Source: a virus. From it: a stretch of 35,005 bases of DNA. Positions 6,712 to 31,908 of this stretch are shown here, piece after piece. The notes beneath the pieces were generated by a model that saw only the letters and a program-made list of their open reading frames with translations, made no database searches and was not told the DNA's origin. The stretch spans positions 1 to 35,005 of the IMG/VR virus record IMGVR_UViG_3300032246_001599; one strand, given 5' to 3'. Numbering within the stretch: position 1 is the first letter of the stretch; each line of letters opens with the position of its first letter. The translations under genes and the position numbers were made by a program.

Positions 6712-6760
6712 TTGACGGGTCACGCCTTCCGGTTGCATACTGTAGACACCACCAAGAGGA
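6712..6760 (+). promoter_or_regulatory. Early promoter P1 with conserved leader
   Basis: TTGACG at 6712-6717 and CATACT at 6736-6741 are separated by 18 bases. The -10 is followed by GTAGACAC and then by the ribosome-binding leader ACCAAGAGGA (6751-6760), seven bases before ATG 6767. The same design recurs at 7505, 9660 and 13073, which is the main support. Confidence 0.65.
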
Positions 6761-6766
6761 GAGACC

Positions 6767-7501
6767 ATGATTATCGAGACCCCCGGCTACCCAAGATCCG
6801 AGACCATTACCGAGCCGCGCAAGATGCTCGCCGTGAATTGCACTCGCTGCGGCGGCCAAGGCGGCTACCGCCATTGGATCGGTTACACCTGCTTTAGGTG
6901 CCAGGGCAGCGGCATCGACCCGACCGCCGCCGCCGTCGTCTACCCGTCGTCGTGGAGTGACGAGCAGATCGAGAGCTACCTTGCGAAAGCGGCCGACCGC
7001 CGCGCCAAGGCCGTCGAGCGTCGCGTGGCTAAGCGGGTGAGCGCGCAAGAGGAGCAGCGCGCCGCCAACATGGTCGCGCACCCCGCCCTTGCCGGATTGG
7101 TCGAGGCCATCGAGGAGCTCGACGCGTGGGCCCGCGACATTATCGACAAGGCCGACCGGTTCGAGTTGAGCGACCGCCAAGTGCAGGCCGTCGCCGACCA
7201 CCTGGCAGCGAAGCGGGCCGAGGCCGCCGCCGCCGGTATCGTCGAGCCCGGGCGCCGCATCATCGCGGGCACCATCATTGCCACCAAACACGTCGAGACC
7301 CCGTACGGCCACACGGTGAAGATGCTCCTCGAGACCACCGACGAGAACGGTGGCACCGTGAAGCTATGGGGAACGCGCCCGGCCGCCCTCGTCGAGGCGA
7401 CCAAGGGCGACGCCGTGACCATGACCGCCACCGTCGAGCGCAGCGATAAAGACGCCGCCTTTGGCTTCTACAGCCGCCCGACGAAGGCCGCCATAATTTA
7501 G
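6767..7501 (+). CDS. DnaJ-type zinc-finger protein with C-terminal beta domain
   Basis: A 244-residue protein, first gene behind promoter P1. Residues about 25-49 carry two CxxCxGxG knuckles (CTRCGGQGG and CFRCQGSG), the zinc-binding pattern of DnaJ. Residues about 60-150 are helical and charged (AEAAAAG, KAVERRVAKRVSAQEEQ). Residues about 155-244 look like a beta barrel: GTIIATKHVETPYGHTVKML, TVKLWGTRP and DAVTMTATVERS. This is reminiscent of small OB-fold domains that bind nucleic acid. No J-domain is present, so it is not a co-chaperone of the usual kind. A nucleic-acid-binding role in early infection is inferred. The protein is probably abundant, given its position directly after a strong-looking promoter. 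Confidence 0.65.
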   Translation: MIIETPGYPRSETITEPRKMLAVNCTRCGGQGGYRHWIGYTCFRCQGSGIDPTAAAVVYPSSWSDEQIESYLAKAADRRAKAVERRVAKRVSAQEEQRAANMVAHPALAGLVEAIEELDAWARDIIDKADRFELSDRQVQAVADHLAAKRAEAAAAGIVEPGRRIIAGTIIATKHVETPYGHTVKMLLETTDENGGTVKLWGTRPAALVEATKGDAVTMTATVERSDKDAAFGFYSRPTKAAII

Positions 7502-7504
7502 GGC

Positions 7505-7563
7505 TTGCAATTCCCAGCCCGAGGGCGCATACTGTAGACACAAGGGAAACCAACCGAGAGGAA
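7505..7563 (+). promoter_or_regulatory. Early promoter P2 with conserved leader
   Basis: TTGCAA at 7505-7510 and CATACT at 7528-7533 with a 17-base spacer. The 33 bases from 7531 to 7563 (from inside the -10 box, through GTAGACAC, to the ACCGAGAGGA ribosome binding site) are identical to 13099-13131. An inverted repeat GGGCT/AGCCC (7501-7505 and 7516-7520) overlaps the -35 region. Confidence 0.75.
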
Positions 7564-8486: not shown

Positions 8487-8708
8487 ATGGCTACTACCAC
8501 CACCGCCCTGCTGGTCGAGGAGGGCACCGGCGCCACCCTGTGCGAGCGCCACCTGCCCGACGGCCTGTTGGCCCAGGTGAGCACGCACCCCGGCCACCCG
8601 CTGTACCACGACGCCGACGCCGTCTGGTGGCGGTTGAGCGACGAGGACCGGCGCGCGTTCACGGAGGCAACCGGCGAGCGGTTCTCGTGCGAGAGCTGCG
8701 GAGCATGA
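8487..8708 (+). CDS. Small zinc-ribbon-like protein (73 aa)
   Basis: A 73-residue protein. I choose ATG 8487 over the in-frame ATG 8427 because AGGAGG lies 8 bases upstream and a -10-like TACAAT precedes it. Potential metal ligands are Cys18, His21 (CERH) and a C-terminal CESC (69-72). The middle (HPGHPLYHDADAVWWRLSDEDRRAFTEATGERFSCESCG) is compact and charged. Similar short proteins with a C-terminal CxxC are frequent in actinobacteriophages. The function is unknown. Its stop overlaps the start of the following winged-helix protein (ATGA). Confidence 0.55.
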   Translation: MATTTTALLVEEGTGATLCERHLPDGLLAQVSTHPGHPLYHDADAVWWRLSDEDRRAFTEATGERFSCESCGA

Positions 8709-9247
8709 CGAGCGGCACCCTGTTCGACTACCCCGCCGAGCTACACCAGCAGCTCACGACCGACGAGTGGCTCAACGTCCACCTGGGTCGGGCGGCCGAG
8801 TCGCCGAACCGTACGACGACGGTGAGCCACGCCTTCCTCAAGCAGCTACGCGACGAGCGCGACGCGATGCAGACCGCCCTCGAAGCGGCGCGCCAGCCGG
8901 TGAGCCGCGCACGGTCGACCGACCCGGAGACCAGCCACCGCGCAGCCGCGGCGCCGACCAACCTCGGCCGGTGGAACGGTCAGCGGCACCGGCTGCTCCA
9001 GGCATACGAGGACGCCCACAACGGCTACCACCCGACCGACGACCTTACCGACGAGGAGGCCGGGGCCATTGCCGGGCTGGCGTTTACGCGGGCTTGCTAT
9101 TGGAAGCGGTGCGGGGAGTTGCGCCAACTCGGATACATCGAGCCCACGGGCGAGCGGGTGAGCAACAGCGGTAATGCCGTAATGACGTGCAGCCTGACCG
9201 CACGCGGTAGGGCGGCCCTCGACGACATTGGACCGCTCCCCCGGTGA
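8705..9247 (+). CDS. Winged helix-turn-helix DNA-binding protein
   Basis: A 180-residue protein starting at ATG 8705 (ATGA overlap). The N-terminal 75 residues are helical. From RARSTDPETSHRAAA (about 69-82) onward it has the pattern of a common phage winged-helix protein: LLQAYEDA, then DDLTDEEAGAIAGLAFTRACYWKRCGELRQLGYIEPTG as helix-turn-helix, and TCSLTARGRAAL as the wing and final helix. It precedes whiB with a GTGA overlap, which suggests a small regulatory operon. Targets are unknown. A transcription or replication role is inferred. Confidence 0.7.
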   Translation: MTSGTLFDYPAELHQQLTTDEWLNVHLGRAAESPNRTTTVSHAFLKQLRDERDAMQTALEAARQPVSRARSTDPETSHRAAAAPTNLGRWNGQRHRLLQAYEDAHNGYHPTDDLTDEEAGAIAGLAFTRACYWKRCGELRQLGYIEPTGERVSNSGNAVMTCSLTARGRAALDDIGPLPR

Positions 9248-9498
9248 GCGTCGACGCGTTCCTAGACGCCATCCAAGACCCGTGGCGGTTAGACGCGAAA
9301 TGTCGAGAAATGCACCCCGACGACTTCTTTATACAACCCGGCGCGCTAATGAGCACGGCCGTCGAAGCGGCCTGCCGGGCGTGCCCGGTTAGTGAGGAGT
9401 GCCTCGACTACGCGTTGGAGCACAACATAAAGCACGGCATATGGGGCGGATTGACGCCCCGCAAACGGCGCGGCCTTCGAGCCGCCAGGAGGAGCTAG
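9244..9498 (+). CDS. whiB: WhiB-family iron-sulfur transcription regulator
   Basis: An 84-residue protein starting at GTG 9244 (GTGA overlap). It has the WhiB signature: four conserved cysteines at 20, 44, 47 and 53 (C-x23-C-x2-C-x5-C), which bind a [4Fe-4S] cluster in this family, the GIWGG turn at 65-69 that contacts the primary sigma factor, and a basic C terminus (TPRKRRGLRAARRS) for DNA binding. WhiB proteins are confined to actinobacteria and their phages, which is the best host marker in the window. In mycobacteriophage TM4 a phage WhiB antagonises host WhiB2; a similar takeover role is possible here but not shown. It sits among other small DNA-binding proteins. Confidence 0.93.
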   Translation: MSVDAFLDAIQDPWRLDAKCREMHPDDFFIQPGALMSTAVEAACRACPVSEECLDYALEHNIKHGIWGGLTPRKRRGLRAARRS

Positions 9499-9503
9499 GA
9501 CCA

Positions 9504-9662
9504 ATGCACGAGCCCGACGACGGCTACCCGTTCAGCGTCGACAAGATCCAGGCACGGCTCGACGCCGGTGCCTACGGCCCCGAAGTTGAGCGGTCGATCA
9601 GCTACCTCCTAGACCAATTGGCAATTACGTCGGCGCTGGTCGACGGGCGGAGTTTCGAGTAG
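9504..9662 (+). CDS. Hypothetical small protein (52 aa)
   Basis: A 52-residue frame from ATG 9504, behind GGAGGAGCTAGGA (from 9488), to TAG 9660-9662. It is acidic, with one amphipathic helix (EVERSISYLLDQLAITSALV). The stop codon lies inside the -10 box of promoter P4, so the end of this gene is also the promoter of the next operon. There is no recognised family. Confidence 0.5.
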   Translation: MHEPDDGYPFSVDKIQARLDAGAYGPEVERSISYLLDQLAITSALVDGRSFE

Positions 9663-9697
9663 TCTGTAGACGGTAGGCATTGCCTACACCGAGAGGA
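9660..9697 (+). promoter_or_regulatory. Early promoter core P4 with hairpin at the predicted transcription start
   Basis: TAGTCT (9660-9665) followed by GTAGAC aligns in register with the CATACT-GTAGAC cores of P1 and P2, but the -35 is poor. An inverted repeat GTAGGC-ATT-GCCTAC (9673-9687) lies where transcription should begin. The ACCGAGAGGA ribosome binding site (9688-9697) follows at once. The repeat could be an operator or an RNA hairpin masking or exposing that site. Confidence 0.55.
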
Positions 9698-9703
9698 GAG
9701 AAC

Positions 9704-9925
9704 ATGAACCGAGAAACCGAGAGCCGTGAAGGCATGACGCCAGAGCTGGCGGCGATCCGTTGCGGATTCGTCGGCTGGGCCATTGCAGTAGTGCCCGCCG
9801 CCATGACGAACGGAACGTGGCCGCAGTACCTCGAGACCGTGCTGGCTGGAGCGTTGGCCGGTTCCCTCGTTGGCTGGGTGGCCGTTTCGGCGCGCATCGC
9901 CCGCAAGACTCGACGACACCCATGA
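9704..9925 (+). CDS. Small membrane protein with two transmembrane helices
   Basis: A 73-residue protein expressed from promoter core P4 with ribosome binding site at 9688-9697. Two hydrophobic helices (about residues 19-36 and 44-66) are connected by a short loop (TNGTWPQYLET). The N terminus is charged (NRETESREG) and the C terminus very basic (RIARKTRRHP), giving a cytoplasmic tail. Small early membrane proteins of this kind are often involved in superinfection exclusion, but nothing here proves it. The next gene in the operon encodes a ribbon-helix-helix protein. Confidence 0.6.
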   Translation: MNRETESREGMTPELAAIRCGFVGWAIAVVPAAMTNGTWPQYLETVLAGALAGSLVGWVAVSARIARKTRRHP

Positions 9926-9936
9926 GAGGAGGAGAA

Positions 9937-10092
9937 ATGAGCACCACCAAGACCAAGACGCTCTCGGCCCGTATGCCAATCGAGGCCGCCGACCGTATTG
10001 AGCTAATTGCGTTTGCGGAGAGGAAGAACCGTAGCGCCCTGATTCGAGACATTCTCGAGAATTACCTGACCAACTACACCGAGGGGAAGTAA
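9937..10092 (+). CDS. Ribbon-helix-helix DNA-binding protein (51 aa)
   Basis: A 51-residue protein behind AGGAGGAG (9927-9934). It matches the CopG/Arc-type ribbon-helix-helix fold: a short beta strand (KTLSARMP), helix 1 (IEAADRIELIAFAERK), a turn with N-R-S, and helix 2 (ALIRDILENYLTNY). Such dimeric proteins usually act as repressors that bind inverted repeats. The nearest candidate operator is the hairpin at 9673-9687, at the promoter of this same operon, which suggests autoregulation (an inference). Confidence 0.8.
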   Translation: MSTTKTKTLSARMPIEAADRIELIAFAERKNRSALIRDILENYLTNYTEGK

Positions 10093-10098
10093 CCAGCA

Positions 10099-10728
10099 AT
10101 GACCGAGAGAAACATTTACCAGCGCATGAGCGCAGTAATGGGCGACGTTGGCCCGGTTGCGAAGGCGGGTTACAACAGCGCGCAGAAGTTCAGCTTTCGC
10201 AGCATCGACGACACCGTGGAGGCCGTGCACCGCGCCCTCGTTGCGCACGAGGTGATCGTGCTCCCCAGGGTGCTCGAGACCGTGGCAACCGAGGTAACGG
10301 TAGGCCAGAAGGCGACGAGAATGAGGCACGTTCAGGTTACGGTCAGCTACACCTACGCCGCCCCCGACGGGTCGAGCGTCGAGACCGTGGCCGTCGGCGA
10401 GAGCATGGACAGCGGCGACAAGGCAACCTCGAAGGCGTTGAGCATGGCCTTCAAGTACGCGCTGTTTCAGACGTTCACCATTCCCACCGGTGAGCGTGAC
10501 GCCGACGCCGACAGCCCCCAGCTCGCTCCGGTGGAGCGAGCGAGCTGCAGCGAGGCCGACCGCCAGGCGATCAGGGCGAAGGCCGAGGCGCGCGGGCTCA
10601 AGGGTAAGGAGCTCGCCGACGCCATTGCGGGTATCCTCGACCGACCGGTGGCCGGGTTCCACGACCTGACCCCCGAGGACGCTAAGACCGTGCTGGAGAG
10701 TCTGGCCGGAGAGGAGGAAGCGGCATGA
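10099..10728 (+). CDS. erf: ERF-family single-strand annealing protein
   Basis: A 209-residue recombination protein. The ERF core spans residues about 4-128, with N-terminal IYQRMSAVMGDVGPVAK, the F-x-F-R-S-I-D-D strand, a beta region (VTVSYTYAAPDGSSVETVAVGE) and the signature MDSGDKATSKALSMAFKYAL (103-122). ERF proteins bind single-stranded DNA, anneal complementary strands and promote phage recombination or circularisation. Residues 145-209 form a helical tail (SEADRQAIRAKAEARGL, LTPEDAKTVLESL). It is followed with ATGA overlap by SSB, its usual partner, and the YqaJ exonuclease at 14167 would supply single-stranded ends. Confidence 0.9.
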   Translation: MTERNIYQRMSAVMGDVGPVAKAGYNSAQKFSFRSIDDTVEAVHRALVAHEVIVLPRVLETVATEVTVGQKATRMRHVQVTVSYTYAAPDGSSVETVAVGESMDSGDKATSKALSMAFKYALFQTFTIPTGERDADADSPQLAPVERASCSEADRQAIRAKAEARGLKGKELADAIAGILDRPVAGFHDLTPEDAKTVLESLAGEEEAA

Positions 10729-11126
10729 ATGTCGCAGGCATTGCGAAGGTAGTGAAGGACCCTGAGCTCCGGTTCAGCCAGGGCGGCAAGGCGTGGCTCG
10801 TCGCGCGCGTCGGCATCGAAAGCCGGGTGAAGAATGGCGACAGCTACGAGACCCGGCTGACGTGGGCCAACCTCAAGGCGTTTGGCAACGCGGCAGAGAA
10901 CGCCGCCGAGCGCATCGCCAAGGGTTCCCGGCTCGTGGTGATCGGTAAGCTCGTCAACGCCGACTGGACAAACGACAAGGGCGAGACCGTCGAGGACCTC
11001 GACCTGTTGGCCGACGAAATCGGCGAGTGCCTCCGGTTCCTCCCCGACCCGGTTGGCAACGGTGGACCCCGCCCGAAGGCCCAGCGCCCCGCCGCCGCGC
11101 CCAGCTATTCGGAGGAGCCCTTCTAA
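10725..11126 (+). CDS. ssb: Single-stranded DNA-binding protein
   Basis: A 133-residue SSB. The N-terminal OB fold (about 1-105) shows GIAKVVKDPELRFSQGGKAWLVARVGI, LTWANLKAFGNAAENAAERIAKGSRLVVIGKL and the closing DLDLLADEIG strand. A Gly/Pro/Ala-rich linker (107-126) leads to an acidic tip ending in SEEPF, which matches the C-terminal protein-interaction tail of bacterial SSB (DDDIPF type). This tail would recruit replication and recombination partners. It is translationally coupled to erf upstream. Confidence 0.9.
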   Translation: MNVAGIAKVVKDPELRFSQGGKAWLVARVGIESRVKNGDSYETRLTWANLKAFGNAAENAAERIAKGSRLVVIGKLVNADWTNDKGETVEDLDLLADEIGECLRFLPDPVGNGGPRPKAQRPAAAPSYSEEPF

Positions 11127-11302
11127 TGGCGCGGCGCGCATCGAGGACTAAGAGCTTTCAAGCGACGGTGGCACAAGCGGCATGGATCGAATGGTATGCC
11201 GAGCACTACGGCGTTACCCAGGCCGACGTAGTGCGCAGTTGTGTTGCCGCGGCGATGAAGCTCGACGACGACCTCGAGAACGTGGACCCGTGGCAGCCAT
11301 GA
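11126..11302 (+). CDS. Small helical protein, possibly ribbon-helix-helix
   Basis: A 58-residue protein whose ATG shares a base with the SSB stop (TAATG). The order is a basic strand (ARRASRTKSFQATV), helix (AQAAWIEWYAEHYG), V-T-Q-A-D, and a second helix (VVRSCVAAAMKLDDDL), which resembles a ribbon-helix-helix or short helix-turn-helix protein. The C terminus is acidic. It overlaps the HNH gene start by four bases. Family assignment is tentative. Confidence 0.5.
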   Translation: MARRASRTKSFQATVAQAAWIEWYAEHYGVTQADVVRSCVAAAMKLDDDLENVDPWQP

Positions 11303-11643
11303 AGCGCAGCCCGCTCGGCCGCCGGACCCCCCTACGCGCGACCTCGTCGCGTAAGCGGGCGCAGGACCGGCGCCGGGCGGTAGTGCGCCGCGCGTTTATG
11401 ATTGCCAACCCCGACTGCGAGCGGTGCGGCGCCATGGCTACCGATTGCCACGAAATCATTAGGCGCAGCCAAGTAACCGACGCCGCCACGCGGCCCGAGC
11501 TATTCGTGGCGCTATGTCGAGATTGCCACCACTGGGCGACCGTCAACCCATGGTCGGGCCACGCCGCGGGCTTCGTGCTGTGGAGCTGGGAGGACAATCC
11601 CAGCGCCCTCGCCCGCGCGCGTGCAACCCGGCGGAGCCGATAG
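11299..11643 (+). CDS. HNH endonuclease
   Basis: A 114-residue protein starting at ATG 11299 (ATGA overlap). After a strongly basic N terminus (about 1-32), residues 40-43 CERC begin the zinc-stabilised beta-beta-alpha metal fold. DCHEI holds the catalytic-type His, and CRDCHHW near residues 73-79 supplies the second CxxC and the last His. This is the compact phage HNH layout. HNH proteins close to terminases often assist packaging, but here it is within the recombination and replication cluster, so a role in recombination or host DNA cleavage is equally possible. Confidence 0.8.
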   Translation: MKRSPLGRRTPLRATSSRKRAQDRRRAVVRRAFMIANPDCERCGAMATDCHEIIRRSQVTDAATRPELFVALCRDCHHWATVNPWSGHAAGFVLWSWEDNPSALARARATRRSR

Positions 11644-13064: not shown

Positions 13065-13080
13065 AAATGGGCTTGTAATC
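13038..13080 (+). promoter_or_regulatory. AT-rich 9-bp inverted repeat spanning the end of a gene and the P3 -35 box
   Basis: GATTACAAG (13038-13046) is the exact reverse complement of CTTGTAATC (13072-13080), which includes the TTGTAA -35 box of P3. The 25-base loop holds the palindrome TTCTAGAA (13059-13066). It is unusually AT-rich for this genome. It may act as an operator or as a terminator of the replication transcript. Confidence 0.5.
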
Positions 13081-13131
13081 TACCGCCGTAGGGTGCAAAC
13101 TGTAGACACAAGGGAAACCAACCGAGAGGAA
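13073..13131 (+). promoter_or_regulatory. Early promoter P3 with conserved leader
   Basis: TTGTAA at 13073-13078 and CAAACT at 13096-13101 are separated by 17 bases. The stretch 13099-13131 is identical to 7531-7563 of P2 and ends in the ACCGAGAGGA ribosome binding site, six bases before ATG 13137. Confidence 0.75.
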
Positions 13132-13947: not shown

Positions 13948-14132
13948 GCGCCCCCAGCATCGAGGACCTCGCCGCCGACCATTTCAGCGCGGAGGAATGG
14001 CGCGCTATCGCAATCCTCAACTACCGCGCGTCGAGCGTGTACCGGGCCCGGTTGGCCGAGTGCACCGACAAGATGGCGGCGGCCCGTGACGAATTGAGGA
14101 GCTACCTCGCCGCCGTCACACCCTCCAAGTAG
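13944..14132 (+). CDS. Small helical protein (62 aa)
   Basis: A 62-residue helical protein starting at ATG 13944 (ATGA overlap). It is acidic at the N terminus and has a long helix (YRARLAECTDKMAAARDELRSYLAAV). Last gene of the P3 operon before the YqaJ leader. No recognised family. Confidence 0.55.
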   Translation: MSAPSIEDLAADHFSAEEWRAIAILNYRASSVYRARLAECTDKMAAARDELRSYLAAVTPSK

Positions 14133-14166: not shown

Positions 14167-15141
14167 ATGATCCCGACCTGTGAACACCTGAAATACCCGA
14201 CCGTGGTGGCCGATTCGAGCGGCCAGACGCGCGAGGAATGGCTGGCCCAGCGCCACGCCGGTATCGGTGGCAGCGACGCCGCCGCGATCCTCGGGTGCAG
14301 CCCGTGGACCAGCCGCTTCAGCCTGTGGCGCGACAAGACGAGCCCCGAGCCGGTGAGCACCCCCGAGACCCCAGCTATGGCTTTCGGGTCGAAGATGGAG
14401 CCGGTGATTAGGCAGGCGTTCGCCGACGCCACCGGGCTCACCGTCTACGAAGCGCCGTTGACCTACGCGCACCCGGAGCACCCTTGGATGCAGGCCAACC
14501 TCGACGGGCTCGTGGCTACCGGGTTCGAGGGCGTTGACGCGATCCTCGAGGTAAAGACCGCGCGCATTGCCGACGCATGGGCCGACGGGCCCCCGCCGTA
14601 CTACGTGAGCCAGGTGCAGCACTACCTCGCCGTGACCGGGCTCAAGCGCGCGTATGTCGCGTGCCTGTTCGGCGGCGTCGAGTTGAGGACGTACGAGCTC
14701 GAGCGCGACCAGCCCTACATCGACCGGCTTGTGAACGCGGAGGCGGCCTTCTGGCGTGAGGTGCAGGAAGGCACCGAACCGGCCGTGGACGGTTCAGAGT
14801 CGACCTATCAGACGCTCCGGCAGACGCCCGTAGACCCCGGCACCGTGGTCGACCTCGATAGCACGATGGCCGAGCTGGTGACCCGCCGGGCCGAGCTGAA
14901 AGCGCAGATCGGAGAGCTAGAGACAGAGCTCAAGGCGGCAGAGGGCGCCATTATGCGCGCCATGGGCGAGGCCGAGACCGGGCGGATCGACGGCGAGACC
15001 GTGATTACTTGGAAGGCGCAGAGCCGCACCGCCGTCGACACCAAGGCCCTCAAGGCCGCCCACCCCGATATCGTCGCGGAATTCGTGAAGGCGTCGACGT
15101 TCAGGGTGCTCCGTATCCGCGACAAGGCGGCCGACGCGTGA
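14167..15141 (+). CDS. YqaJ-type exonuclease (viral recombinase family)
   Basis: A 324-residue protein with its own ACCGAGAGGA ribosome binding site (14150-14159). Residues about 20-215 show the YqaJ/PD-(D/E)xK nuclease core: RHAGIGGSDAAAILGCSPW (29-47), FGSKMEP with Glu78, LDG with Asp113, EVK with Glu128 and Lys130, and VSQVQHYL with Gln149 and Gln151. This is the lambda-Exo-like 5'-to-3' exonuclease that makes single-stranded tails for an annealing protein, here ERF at 10099. Residues about 230-275 form a coiled-coil-like helix (MAELVTRRAELKAQIGELET), and the C terminus has a small beta-helix domain common to phage YqaJ proteins. Confidence 0.9.
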   Translation: MIPTCEHLKYPTVVADSSGQTREEWLAQRHAGIGGSDAAAILGCSPWTSRFSLWRDKTSPEPVSTPETPAMAFGSKMEPVIRQAFADATGLTVYEAPLTYAHPEHPWMQANLDGLVATGFEGVDAILEVKTARIADAWADGPPPYYVSQVQHYLAVTGLKRAYVACLFGGVELRTYELERDQPYIDRLVNAEAAFWREVQEGTEPAVDGSESTYQTLRQTPVDPGTVVDLDSTMAELVTRRAELKAQIGELETELKAAEGAIMRAMGEAETGRIDGETVITWKAQSRTAVDTKALKAAHPDIVAEFVKASTFRVLRIRDKAADA

Positions 15142-15776
15142 GGGAGCACGGCACGCGCGCGAAGTACGTGGCCGACCGGTGCCGGTGCCAGGCGTGCACC
15201 GCAGCTAACAGCGCGTACCAGCGGGAGCGCGCCCGCTACCTCACCCGCGTTGCCTACGGCATCGAGACCGCCCGGCCCACCCGAATCGACGCCACCGAGG
15301 CGCGCGAGCACCTTCGCTGGTTGTCGACCGTCGGAGTCGGCAAGCGCGAAGCGGCCAAGGCCGCCGGGTTGAGCCTAAGCGCCGTGCAGGAGATTCGGAG
15401 CGGCCGCCGTACCAAGTGCAACCCGTCGACCGCGTCGAAGATCCTCGCCGTAAGCCGGTTGGCCGCGGCCCCAGGCGCGCGCATCGACGCGGGCCCGACG
15501 TGGCGGCTCATTGAGGAGATGCTCCAGGCCGGATACACCCGCGAAAGCGTGGCAAGATTCCTCGGCAGCACAGCCAAGGCCCCGGCGTTGCAAATCAGCC
15601 GCGACAAGGTCACGGCCGCGATGGCCCGCCGGGTCGAGGAGCTACACCACCGGCTCCTGTTTCGCAGCATTGCAGAGAGGCAAACGGCGCTCGAAATGGA
15701 GAACGAACGCCAGCGCAACTACCGCCGCCGCCTGGCCGCCGGTGAAGTGAAGCGCCGCCCCAAGGTGCAGGCGTAA
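15138..15776 (+). CDS. Helix-turn-helix protein with N-terminal HGT/CxxC motif
   Basis: A 212-residue basic protein starting at GTG 15138 (GTGA overlap with the nuclease gene). Residues 3-32 carry HGTRAKYVADRCRCQACTAA, a short Cys-rich module also found in the protein at 16662. Residues about 65-100 look like a helix-turn-helix (GVGKREAAKAAGLSLSAVQEIRSG), and about 120-135 like a second helical repeat (YTRESVARFLGS). The C terminus is a charged helix (MARRVEELHHRLLFRSIAERQTALEMENERQ). DNA binding is likely; a role as an early or late transcription regulator is inferred. Such proteins are common in actinobacteriophages. Confidence 0.65.
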   Translation: MREHGTRAKYVADRCRCQACTAANSAYQRERARYLTRVAYGIETARPTRIDATEAREHLRWLSTVGVGKREAAKAAGLSLSAVQEIRSGRRTKCNPSTASKILAVSRLAAAPGARIDAGPTWRLIEEMLQAGYTRESVARFLGSTAKAPALQISRDKVTAAMARRVEELHHRLLFRSIAERQTALEMENERQRNYRRRLAAGEVKRRPKVQA

Positions 15777-18006: not shown

Positions 18007-18225
18007 ATGGGAAACGTGGAGCAGCTAGACCGGTTGGCCGAATTGCACGCCGAAATCCGGGTGGCATACCGCGCCCTCGCCGTCGCCGTCGCCGATGGCA
18101 CCGACCCCCAGCACCACGAAAGATACGTGGCGCGTTTATTGGCCGAAACCGAGAGCGCCCGGCGCAAGTATCAAACCCAAGGCACCGACCGCTGGGTGAG
18201 CGTGAACGGGCCCGCCGATGGCTGA
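18007..18225 (+). CDS. Small helical protein upstream of the methyltransferase
   Basis: A 72-residue protein behind ATCGAGAGGA (17988-17997). It is helical and acidic in its first two thirds (VEQLDRLAELHAEIRVAYRALAVAVADG, HHERYVARLLAETESARRKYQ). It overlaps the methyltransferase start by eight bases. It could be a structural or regulatory partner of that enzyme, but no family is recognised. Confidence 0.55.
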   Translation: MGNVEQLDRLAELHAEIRVAYRALAVAVADGTDPQHHERYVARLLAETESARRKYQTQGTDRWVSVNGPADG

Positions 18226-19537
18226 TCAGATCCACCCCGACCTCGAGGCGTTGGCCGTCGACATTGAGCTCCTAAGCCCGTTGCCCGGCAATCCGCGTAA
18301 GGGCGACGTGGAGGCGGTGAAGCGCAGCTACCAGACCTTCGGGCAGCGTAAACCAATCGTGGTGAGGCGCGAAGGCGCGGGCGGCATCGTCATTGCAGGC
18401 AACCACCAGCTCCAAGCGGCGAAGGCCCTCGGGTGGACCCGCATAGCCGCGCTGTTCACCGACGACGACGACCTAACCGCGAAGGCCTACGCGTTGGCCG
18501 ACAATAAGACCGCCGACCTCGGTACGTACGACGACGACCTAGTGGCGGAGCTCCTCGCCGAATTGACGGTGGACCCCGAGCTATTGGCCGCCACCGCCTA
18601 CAGCGAGCTCGAGGTGGCCGGGCTCCTCGGTGAGACCGTCGGCGCCCCCAAGAATGACCCCGACGAAACCCCAGCCGCTCCACGGGTTGCCCACAGCACG
18701 CCGACCGACGTATGGCTCCTGGGTGAGCACCGGCTCGTCGTCGGCGACAGCACCGACCCCGACACGATTGCCCTAGCCCTCGACGGCCGGTTGGCCGACA
18801 TTGTGTTTACGGACCCGCCCTACGGCGTGGAGTACGTCGGCAAGACGAAAGAGGAGCTAACTATCGAGAATGACGGCATGACCGCCGCGGCGTTCGAGGC
18901 GTTCCTCCTCGAGGCGTATGGCGCCATGATCCAGCACACGAAAGAGGGCGGCCCGATCTACGTATGCCACGCCATCATGGCGGCCCCGGCGTTTATGGGG
19001 CAGTTCGAGGCGGCCGGTTGGAGTTTGCGCCAAGTGCTCGTCTGGGTCAAAGATTGTTTCGCGTTGAGCCGCCAGGATTACAACTGGCAGCACGAACCGA
19101 TCCTCTACGGGTGGAAACCCGGCGCCGCGCACCCGTGGCACGGGCCCTTCAACGATTCCACGGTGCACGACTTTGAGCGCAGCGACCTAAACAGCCTCTC
19201 GAAGGGCGACCTAATGGAAATCATCGAGCAGGGCCGCCGGTGGTCCAACGTGATTAGGGAGGACCGGCCGAAGCGCAGCACCGAGCACCCGACGATGAAA
19301 CCCGTAAAGCTAGTGCAGCGGCTTCTAAAGAACAGCGCCACCACCGGCGACACCGTGCTCGACCCGTTCGGCGGCAGCGGGTCCACCCTGATTGCCGCCC
19401 ACGGGCTCGGCATGAAGGCCGCCCTCGTTGAGCTAGATCCAATCTACGCCGACGTAATCTGCAGGCGGTTTGAGGAGCACACCGGCGTTACGCCCATTGC
19501 CGAGGCCACGGGCCAGCCGCACTCGTTCGTCGGATAG
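18218..19537 (+). CDS. ParB-like domain fused to a beta-class DNA methyltransferase
   Basis: A 439-residue fusion. Residues about 12-125 form a ParB/Srx-like domain (LSPLPGNPRKGDVEAVKRSYQTFGQ, IVIAGNHQLQAAKALGW, ADNKTAD) as found in phage ParB-methylase proteins. From about 165 the enzyme domain begins: motif IV DPPY at 199-202 comes before motif I, FGGSGST at 384-390, with HPTMKP at 357-362. This order is that of beta-class amino-methyltransferases, which methylate adenine N6 or cytosine N4 using S-adenosylmethionine. It is just upstream of the terminase genes. Likely roles are protection from host restriction or marking DNA for packaging; the target site cannot be read from sequence. Confidence 0.9.
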   Translation: MADQIHPDLEALAVDIELLSPLPGNPRKGDVEAVKRSYQTFGQRKPIVVRREGAGGIVIAGNHQLQAAKALGWTRIAALFTDDDDLTAKAYALADNKTADLGTYDDDLVAELLAELTVDPELLAATAYSELEVAGLLGETVGAPKNDPDETPAAPRVAHSTPTDVWLLGEHRLVVGDSTDPDTIALALDGRLADIVFTDPPYGVEYVGKTKEELTIENDGMTAAAFEAFLLEAYGAMIQHTKEGGPIYVCHAIMAAPAFMGQFEAAGWSLRQVLVWVKDCFALSRQDYNWQHEPILYGWKPGAAHPWHGPFNDSTVHDFERSDLNSLSKGDLMEIIEQGRRWSNVIREDRPKRSTEHPTMKPVKLVQRLLKNSATTGDTVLDPFGGSGSTLIAAHGLGMKAALVELDPIYADVICRRFEEHTGVTPIAEATGQPHSFVG

Positions 19538-28913: not shown

Positions 28914-28939
28914 GGGGGCCGGGCTTCGGCCCGGTCCCC
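28914..28939 (+). terminator. Strong UUCG hairpin downstream of the major capsid gene
   Basis: An 11-bp stem (28914-28924 with 28929-28939, one G-T pair) closed by the tetraloop TTCG, 37 bases after the capsid stop. No T tract follows, which is common for actinobacterial terminators. It may partially terminate, raising capsid message over tail genes, or protect the 3' end. Confidence 0.7.
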
Positions 28940-28982
28940 GTCGGCGTATCGGGACCAAGTGCAGAGAGAGGAAGGGGAGACC

Positions 28983-30936: not shown

Positions 30937-31908
30937 ATGCCGTACGCATCCGTAAACAGCTTTGCCGGGCTCGGCTATGAGTCGACCCCCGGCACGGCGT
31001 CGACCCTCATGAAGTGGCTCCCCGTCACGACGCCGCAGGTTACGCCGATGCAGACCTTTCTCCGCGACGAGGCCTATCGTGGCAGCCCCACGACGGTCTA
31101 CAGCCAGGTTGCCGGAGTTCGACACGATGAGTACGAGGCCAAGGCCTTCGTGTACCCCGAGAGTTTCCCGCTGTTGGCGTTCGCCACCCTCGGTAAGGAC
31201 ACCGTGAGCGGCACCGGCACGTACACGCACACGGTGAAGCTGCTCAACGATGCCACCACCGGGTCGCAGCCGCCCTCGTTGACCATTCAGGACTTCGACG
31301 GTCAGAAGGCGTTTCAGATGACCGACGGCCAGATGGCCGAGCTCAAGCTCAACTTTGGGGCCGAGGCGCCGGTGGAGGCTACGGCGAAGTTCATGGCTAA
31401 CCCGTTCACCGAGATTGCCACCCCGACCGGCGTGAGCATCCCGACCACGACCTTCGTGCCGGGCTGGGACGTGAGCGTGAGCCTCGGCGGATCAGCTAGC
31501 TCCGTGCTGGTTGACGGCGAAATTACGATGAACCGCAGCACCACCCCGATCTTTACGGCCGGGACCGCGTCGCCCTACAAGACCTTTGCCGGGCCGCTCG
31601 ACGTGTCGGGCCGTATGCGATTCGTCGTCGAGTCGACGGACCCCATGCTCCTGTCGGCGAATGGCAAGTGGTCGCTGGTTCAGCTCCCGAAGGTGGTGGC
31701 GTTGACGTTCACCGAGCCCGTTAGCAACACCACCACCATTGTTACGATGAGCCAGGTGCAGTTTCACGACGCGAAGCGCGACCGCGGCAAGGCGTTCGTG
31801 GAGGTCGAGGCGCAGTTCACCGCCCAGGCAAACGCGACCGACGCCGACAGCGGGTACTCCCCTATCAAGATCGTTTCGACGAACAGCATCGCCAGCTACA
31901 CCGCATGA
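30937..31908 (+). CDS. Major tail (tube) protein
   Basis: A 323-residue protein. The N terminus (SVNSFAGLGYESTPGTASTLMKWLPVTT) has the G-x-x-x-E-x-x-x-G-T-A start typical of phage tail tube proteins that are assembled from a two-lobed beta barrel. Further features are SQVAGVRHDEYEAKAFVYPESFPLLAFATLG, SLTIQDFDGQKAFQMTDGQMAELKLNF and the closing VALTFTEPV. The position just before the frameshifted chaperones and tape measure gives strong support. Leu codons favour CTC and CTG and avoid CTA, as in the capsid gene. Confidence 0.85.
   Translation: MPYASVNSFAGLGYESTPGTASTLMKWLPVTTPQVTPMQTFLRDEAYRGSPTTVYSQVAGVRHDEYEAKAFVYPESFPLLAFATLGKDTVSGTGTYTHTVKLLNDATTGSQPPSLTIQDFDGQKAFQMTDGQMAELKLNFGAEAPVEATAKFMANPFTEIATPTGVSIPTTTFVPGWDVSVSLGGSASSVLVDGEITMNRSTTPIFTAGTASPYKTFAGPLDVSGRMRFVVESTDPMLLSANGKWSLVQLPKVVALTFTEPVSNTTTIVTMSQVQFHDAKRDRGKAFVEVEAQFTAQANATDADSGYSPIKIVSTNSIASYTA

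Follow-up and report, generated by a model that had tools for sequence, protein, structure and literature searches.

A 15-bp palindrome located where transcription of an early recombination operon is predicted to begin is best read as a DNA operator for the ribbon-helix-helix (RHH) protein encoded within that operon, acting in negative feedback, a reading that we hold tentatively and place somewhat below an even chance. The analysis covered a window of 35,005 nucleotides, the whole stretch of viral DNA presented here, and the features discussed are collected in Table 1. The palindrome would operate over the start of a transcription unit comprising a small membrane-type gene and the genes for the RHH protein, ERF and SSB. 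A repressor made by the phage, most likely the 51-residue RHH protein, would bind the palindrome as a dimer, and further dimers might occupy the 7-bp half-sites on its upstream side, which extend over the -10 element. Once bound, the repressor would block RNA polymerase and keep the output of the operon in a negative feedback loop. The position of the palindrome suits a repressor site, and it is plausible, as well as fairly ordinary, that a phage repressor should switch an operon off through such an element.

Table 1. Coordinates of the candidate operator, the early promoters and the genes of the operon.
Feature	Position	Strand	Remark
Sister promoter TTGACG-18-CATACT, CTGTAGAC 6740-6747	6712-6747	+	hand reading
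Sister promoter TTGCAA-17-CATACT, CTGTAGAC 7532-7539	7505-7539	+	hand reading
Weak -35 candidate TGGTCG, 3/6 to TTGACA	9637-9642	+	17 nt before -10; inferred
7-bp unit array GTAGTCT-GTAGACG-GTAGGCA-T-TGCCTAC	9659-9687	+	candidate extended operator
-10 candidate TAGTCT	9660-9665	+	hand register with sister CATACT, CATACT, CAAACT
Shared element CTGTAGAC	9664-9671	+	common to four early promoters
Palindrome GTAGGCA-T-TGCCTAC	9673-9687	.	predicted +1 or +2 onwards
Ribosome-binding site GAGAGGAGAG of first gene	9691-9700	+	read from sequence
First gene, 73 aa, by eye with two hydrophobic segments	9704-9925	+	small membrane-type protein
Second gene, 51-aa RHH protein P0001	9937-10092	+	candidate repressor
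Third gene, ERF single-strand annealing protein	10099-10728	+	family match
Fourth gene, SSB	10725-11126	+	family match
Sister promoter TTGTAA-17-CAAACT, CTGTAGAC 13100-13107	13073-13107	+	hand reading

The inverted repeat GTAGGC-ATT-GCCTAC described in the initial annotation is present as reported. In RNA it forms a 6-bp stem with an AUU loop; the first and last bases of the loop match as well, which makes the element, read as DNA, a palindrome of 15 bp whose 7-bp arms flank a single T. This extension of the symmetry into the outer loop bases favours recognition as DNA, which could make use of it; for a 6-bp RNA stem closed by a triloop it would be superfluous. No other copy of GTAGGC-N3-GCCTAC was found in the record, which holds two more 15-mers within three mismatches of the palindrome. 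The annotation had placed the repeat at the predicted transcription start and in contact with the ribosome-binding site; the former placement stands, but 3 nt separate the end of the palindrome (9687) from GAGAGGAGAG (9691), and the ATG follows at 9704. The leader core ACCGAGAGGA recurs.

The promoter belongs, by shared sequence, to a family of four early promoters. The window holds five copies of the element CTGTAGAC, where 0.45 would be expected. From the ends of the copies at 6740, 7532, 9664 and 13100 it is 19, 30, 32 and 29 nt, respectively, to a start codon; the fifth, at 31096, lies on the opposite strand within a long ORF. Placement of CTGTAGAC directly over and after the -10 element at four early promoters is a tighter likeness than a plain promoter requires. 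Two of the sister leaders (7501-7563 and 13069-13131) are 86% identical, and an inverted-repeat scan detected no palindrome with 7-bp arms in any of the three. When the leaders were aligned with MAFFT, the palindrome leader was shifted by 7 nt, which paired GTAGGC with GTAGAC, and the ungapped hand register was adopted. The upstream ORF (9504-9662) ends with the TAG of the -10 candidate, which serves as its stop codon. With TAGTCT as the -10 element, transcription would be expected to start at G9672 or G9673; position +7 after this hexamer is G9672, one base before the palindrome. The earlier assignment of a promoter is backed by the family resemblance through CTGTAGAC, but the -35 candidate is poor and a consensus promoter scan of positions 8500-11500 found no promoter, and we regard it as a putative one. 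No terminator-like site was detected in a scan of the same interval, and a 20-mer from the sister promoters had no match in viral_contigs. GTAGAC also occurs at 14129, 38 nt upstream of a start codon at 14167.

The genes downstream are separated by 11 and 6 nt and then overlap by 4 nt, which suggests a single transcript. Family matches of the 73-aa product were all weak or below cut-off, and no relatives of it were found in phages at E 1. The operon had been annotated as encoding an RHH protein, and our searches bear this out: the 51-aa product matched Pfam RHH_1 with 27.1 bits (cut-off 20.5; 26.4 bits in a repeat search) and phrog_7325, which is CopG-like, at 2.7e-05, and it was the only protein of the record with an RHH_1 match. 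A single-chain structure model consisted of helix only (mean pLDDT 83.7, pTM 0.45), as is expected because the RHH strand pairs in the dimer. Of the self-repression proposed in the initial annotation, the site at the predicted start and the RHH_1 protein in the operon stand, and judged from the sequence the protein is a candidate for the repressor. The 58-aa protein encoded after SSB (11126-11302) showed a weak likeness to RHH repressors (phrog_876, 0.027) and had no Pfam match; it is possibly a second RHH protein. Other predicted DNA-binding proteins comprise a WhiB-like protein above cut-off (9244-9498), an HTH_3-like protein below cut-off (15138-15776; 19 bits vs. 23) and a replication-initiator-like HTH_36 protein. 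The host of the phage is probably an actinobacterium, since a WhiB-like gene is carried. Further along, a DNA methylase of the N6_N4_Mtase family, the front part of which resembles ParB_N just under cut-off, is encoded at 18218-19537, before the terminase genes.

Beyond what the initial annotation noted, the palindrome forms the end of a longer array of four 7-bp units, GTAGTCT at 9659, GTAGACG at 9666, GTAGGCA at 9673 and the inverted TGCCTAC at 9681-9687, in which five of the seven columns are identical in all units. We scanned the window for three direct and one inverted unit in either order, with unit lengths of 5-11 and gaps of 0-4. The array ranked second, after a repeat at 18073, and when the whole window was shuffled 200 times, 34 of the shuffles held an array as good at some position. 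Leaders, which amount to 6.7% of the window when approximate starts are used, contain 8 of the 17 GTAGNC sites of the + strand, vs. 4 of 71 on the other strand with the same approximate starts. The corresponding binomial value is 5.6e-6, or 2.6e-4 with the array counted once, for a motif picked post hoc. Half-sites of the GTAGNC type in a 7-bp register favour a DNA-binding site a little. A scan of bacterial genomes with this one heptad also gave 81 stretches in which GTAGNCN arrays include an inverted unit, and 58 of these contain two adjacent identical units, as in simple tandem repeats; with these stretches being largely simple heptamer repeats, the array alone is no RHH signature. The viral scan returned one GTAGNCN array, located between two ORFs of locus L163 (728-778), where GTAGGCT, GTAGGCT, GTAGACC, GTAGGCA and inverted units form a dyad of 7-bp units; the record of this locus has no RHH_1 match. 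Five viral stretches with a direct unit next to the palindrome were rejected as unrelated, all of them having the same downstream gene and clusters of TGCCTAC. These clusters (L158-L162, e.g., L160:4335-4506), in five contigs of one family, often have their units about 10 bp apart, precede a small-terminase-like gene (by eye), and have the look of iteron-type packaging or regulatory sites.

A bolder extension of the operator reading, in which GTAGNC would be the 7-bp unit of one regulator throughout the phage, in the manner of an omega-like heptad code, seems to us improbable. Under it, the RHH protein would act weakly on the single units of the three sister promoters (6742, 7534 and 13102) and strongly on the array of its own operon (9659-9687), and the number of units would set the order in which the early operons are shut off.

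The initial annotation had looked to relatives for the same palindrome at other promoters. The large terminase has 451 relatives (best identity 71%), and our comparison set consisted of 80 terminase-related loci kept from these plus two exonuclease-related ones, i.e., 82 loci and 819,958 bases, many of the records being fragments. The GTAGGC palindrome was found in none of the 82 terminase- or exonuclease-related loci; a relative of the RHH protein is also absent there, so nothing is refuted. With tblastn, the RHH, ERF and membrane-type gene products had no hit in the 82 loci, RHH_1 was matched in none of 8 and none of 16 whole records (23 different ones, as one record was in both sets; 20 belong to the comparison set), and the ERF family in none of 15 records. 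For the RHH protein, no relatives were found in viral_contigs (scan for close relatives) or in phages, no match by sequence in the PDB, and only two matches in plasmids, with E-values of 0.3 and 0.6. ERF had matches in 351 phage records, none of which reached 60% identity, and no relatives in viral_contigs or genome_contigs by a peptide scan for close relatives; two annotated records, of three examined, lack a gene annotated as RHH ahead of ERF, and the third carries no annotation. As both the site and the RHH gene are missing from the relatives, this outcome is compatible with the operator reading and is no test of it. These searches having turned up no RHH relative, a second operator for comparison is lacking, and with neither the palindrome nor the RHH gene in the related loci, the comparison cannot tell an operator from an RNA hairpin.

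Three other explanations of the palindrome have to be weighed. It may be an unselected inverted repeat, with the GTAG units as a by-product of CTGTAGAC and the TAG stop codon. The counts across the window agree with this: inverted repeats with arms of at least 6 and loops of 3-8 numbered 84 vs. 78 +/- 7 in 30 shuffles, odd palindromes with arms of at least 7 numbered 4 vs. 4.1, and even ones 5 vs. 5.0, so over the full window palindromes of such quality are no more frequent than chance predicts. The exact 15-mer was found in 71 stretches of viral_contigs (55 distinct by their flanks), 51 of which lie under an open frame of at least 100 codons, as scattered chance hits would; several others are, judging by eye from the flanks, intergenic hairpins. 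Of 196 palindromes counted by strand over the 82 loci together with the window, 7 stand ahead of a ribosome-binding site and start codon, with no visible surplus (a count made without a matched background). Locally, however, the picture is different. When the 44-nt leader (9660-9703) was shuffled, an odd palindrome with 7-bp arms arose in 27 of 20,000 shuffles. If even ones are counted too, the number is 54, a figure that becomes about 1 in 100 when four promoters could be chosen. Of the nine palindromes in the window with arms of at least 7 bp, only the one at 9673-9687 was found to precede a ribosome-binding site and start. The rarity of the palindrome in its own leader is modest and suggestive. 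Against an operator stand the single perfect site and the many places in the window at which a palindrome might be noticed. On balance, we consider an origin by chance rather unlikely.

Alternatively, the element may work in the mRNA, as a 5'-terminal hairpin from G9672 or G9673 that slows 5'-end-dependent decay or tunes ribosome loading. The RNA of positions 9672-9721 folds at -9.4 kcal/mol with a z of -2.44 (2 of 200 shuffles as good), vs. the three sister leaders, whose values of -0.3, -3.5 and -5.6 (z +1.06, -0.67 and +0.36) lie inside the shuffle range. If transcription starts as predicted, a stable stem would take up the 5' end of the RNA and leave no more than one 5' base unpaired, and the ribosome-binding site is left outside the large hairpin, with a 2-bp helix drawn across part of it. 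One terminase relative, L105, carries the unlike palindrome GCGTAAT-C-ATTACGC (780-794; 7+1+7) in the same place, between a TACAAT that it directly follows and the ribosome-binding site of a 63-aa ORF, as though it were the structure that mattered, not the sequence; yet this is a single case in 82 loci with a leader that is not homologous, too few to argue from. The symmetry reaching into the loop also speaks against the hairpin, as do the z of only -1.86 for the longer RNA (9666-9735; 12 of 200 shuffles as good) and the frequency of comparable stems: a hairpin of at least 6 pairs arose in 510 of the 20,000 leader shuffles, a perfect stem of that size is present in 4 of 52 leaders, the palindrome leader included (the list of starts is approximate, some entries being a few bases off or unchecked), and the folding energy of this leader (-11.2) is outside the six strongest of the 52. 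The window had no match to Rfam families, and no homologous leader turned up that would allow a count of compensatory changes. We regard a role in the mRNA as possible, though unlikely, and as the chief rival of the operator reading. Elsewhere in the window, a very stable G+C-rich hairpin region (28914-28940) without a T run follows a probable capsid gene (by eye), and the 45-nt leader of the gene at 28959 folds at -28.3 kcal/mol. Least probable among the explanations of the palindrome, and in our view decidedly so, is an operator for another regulator, i.e., the WhiB-like or HTH_3-like protein, a CI-type protein encoded outside the fragment, or a host protein. The first two are encoded here, the record may be a fragment, and in two loci (L035:5284-5298 and L065:6606-6620) the same 15-mer occupies the promoter of a divergent gene pair whose translations look, by eye, CI-like and Cro-like, a position that suggests an operator for another protein class. 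These two loci also count for the RHH operator reading, as a precedent in arrangement and not in homology. WhiB proteins, however, usually act with a sigma factor and not on such palindromes, and the RHH gene sits within the operon itself. Integrases of the tyrosine (PF00589) and serine (PF00239) classes were each absent from the one record searched, which may be a fragment; this speaks against a CI-type regulator, and a lysogeny switch accordingly received no support.

If the operator reading with the RHH protein as repressor is true, the recombination genes (ERF, SSB) of this uncultured phage would lie under one simple feedback loop that is open to testing, and the site would furnish a short synthetic promoter for asking whether the number of units tunes RHH repression. 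Even so, the general picture of phage regulation would be unchanged.

Arc, Mnt and CopG are autoregulated RHH repressors of phages and plasmids. As in these systems, a small RHH protein is encoded here in an operon whose promoter has an inverted repeat; unlike in them, the RHH gene comes second, behind a membrane-type gene, and its binding to the site is putative. The bacterial and prophage elements that share single properties with the site are more distant. Tandem repeats of the heptamer TAACTGA are reported for bacterial genomes (PMC4679880). The 7-bp period is common to both, but the phage array has three unlike direct units and one inverted unit, and is placed inside a promoter. With the CI/Cro-type prophage operators of L035 and L065, the site shares an identical 15-mer inside a promoter, but the divergent CI-like and Cro-like genes present there are not seen here, and the shared 15-mer is probably a coincidence.

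The omega protein, whose unit differs in sequence from GTAGNC, offers the comparison for the array. Its unit is a heptad, as de la Hoz 2004 reportedly described. The likeness consists in the RHH family and, for the candidate array, in 7-bp units, direct and inverted, over a predicted promoter. A ParA-type partner (PF13614, one model) was absent from the one record searched, which may be a fragment. According to PMC5016525, omega acts as a repressor at repeats, direct as well as inverted, that extend over promoters, the parS sites of plasmid pSM19035, with 9, 7 and 10 iterons, overlap promoters, and the affinity of the protein depends on iteron number, direct and inverted repeats being bound comparably. 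The phage site has four units vs. the 7 to 10 iterons there. RHH proteins acting on direct and inverted repeats over promoters are an already established kind of regulator, of which the phage site and its RHH protein would be at most one more case.
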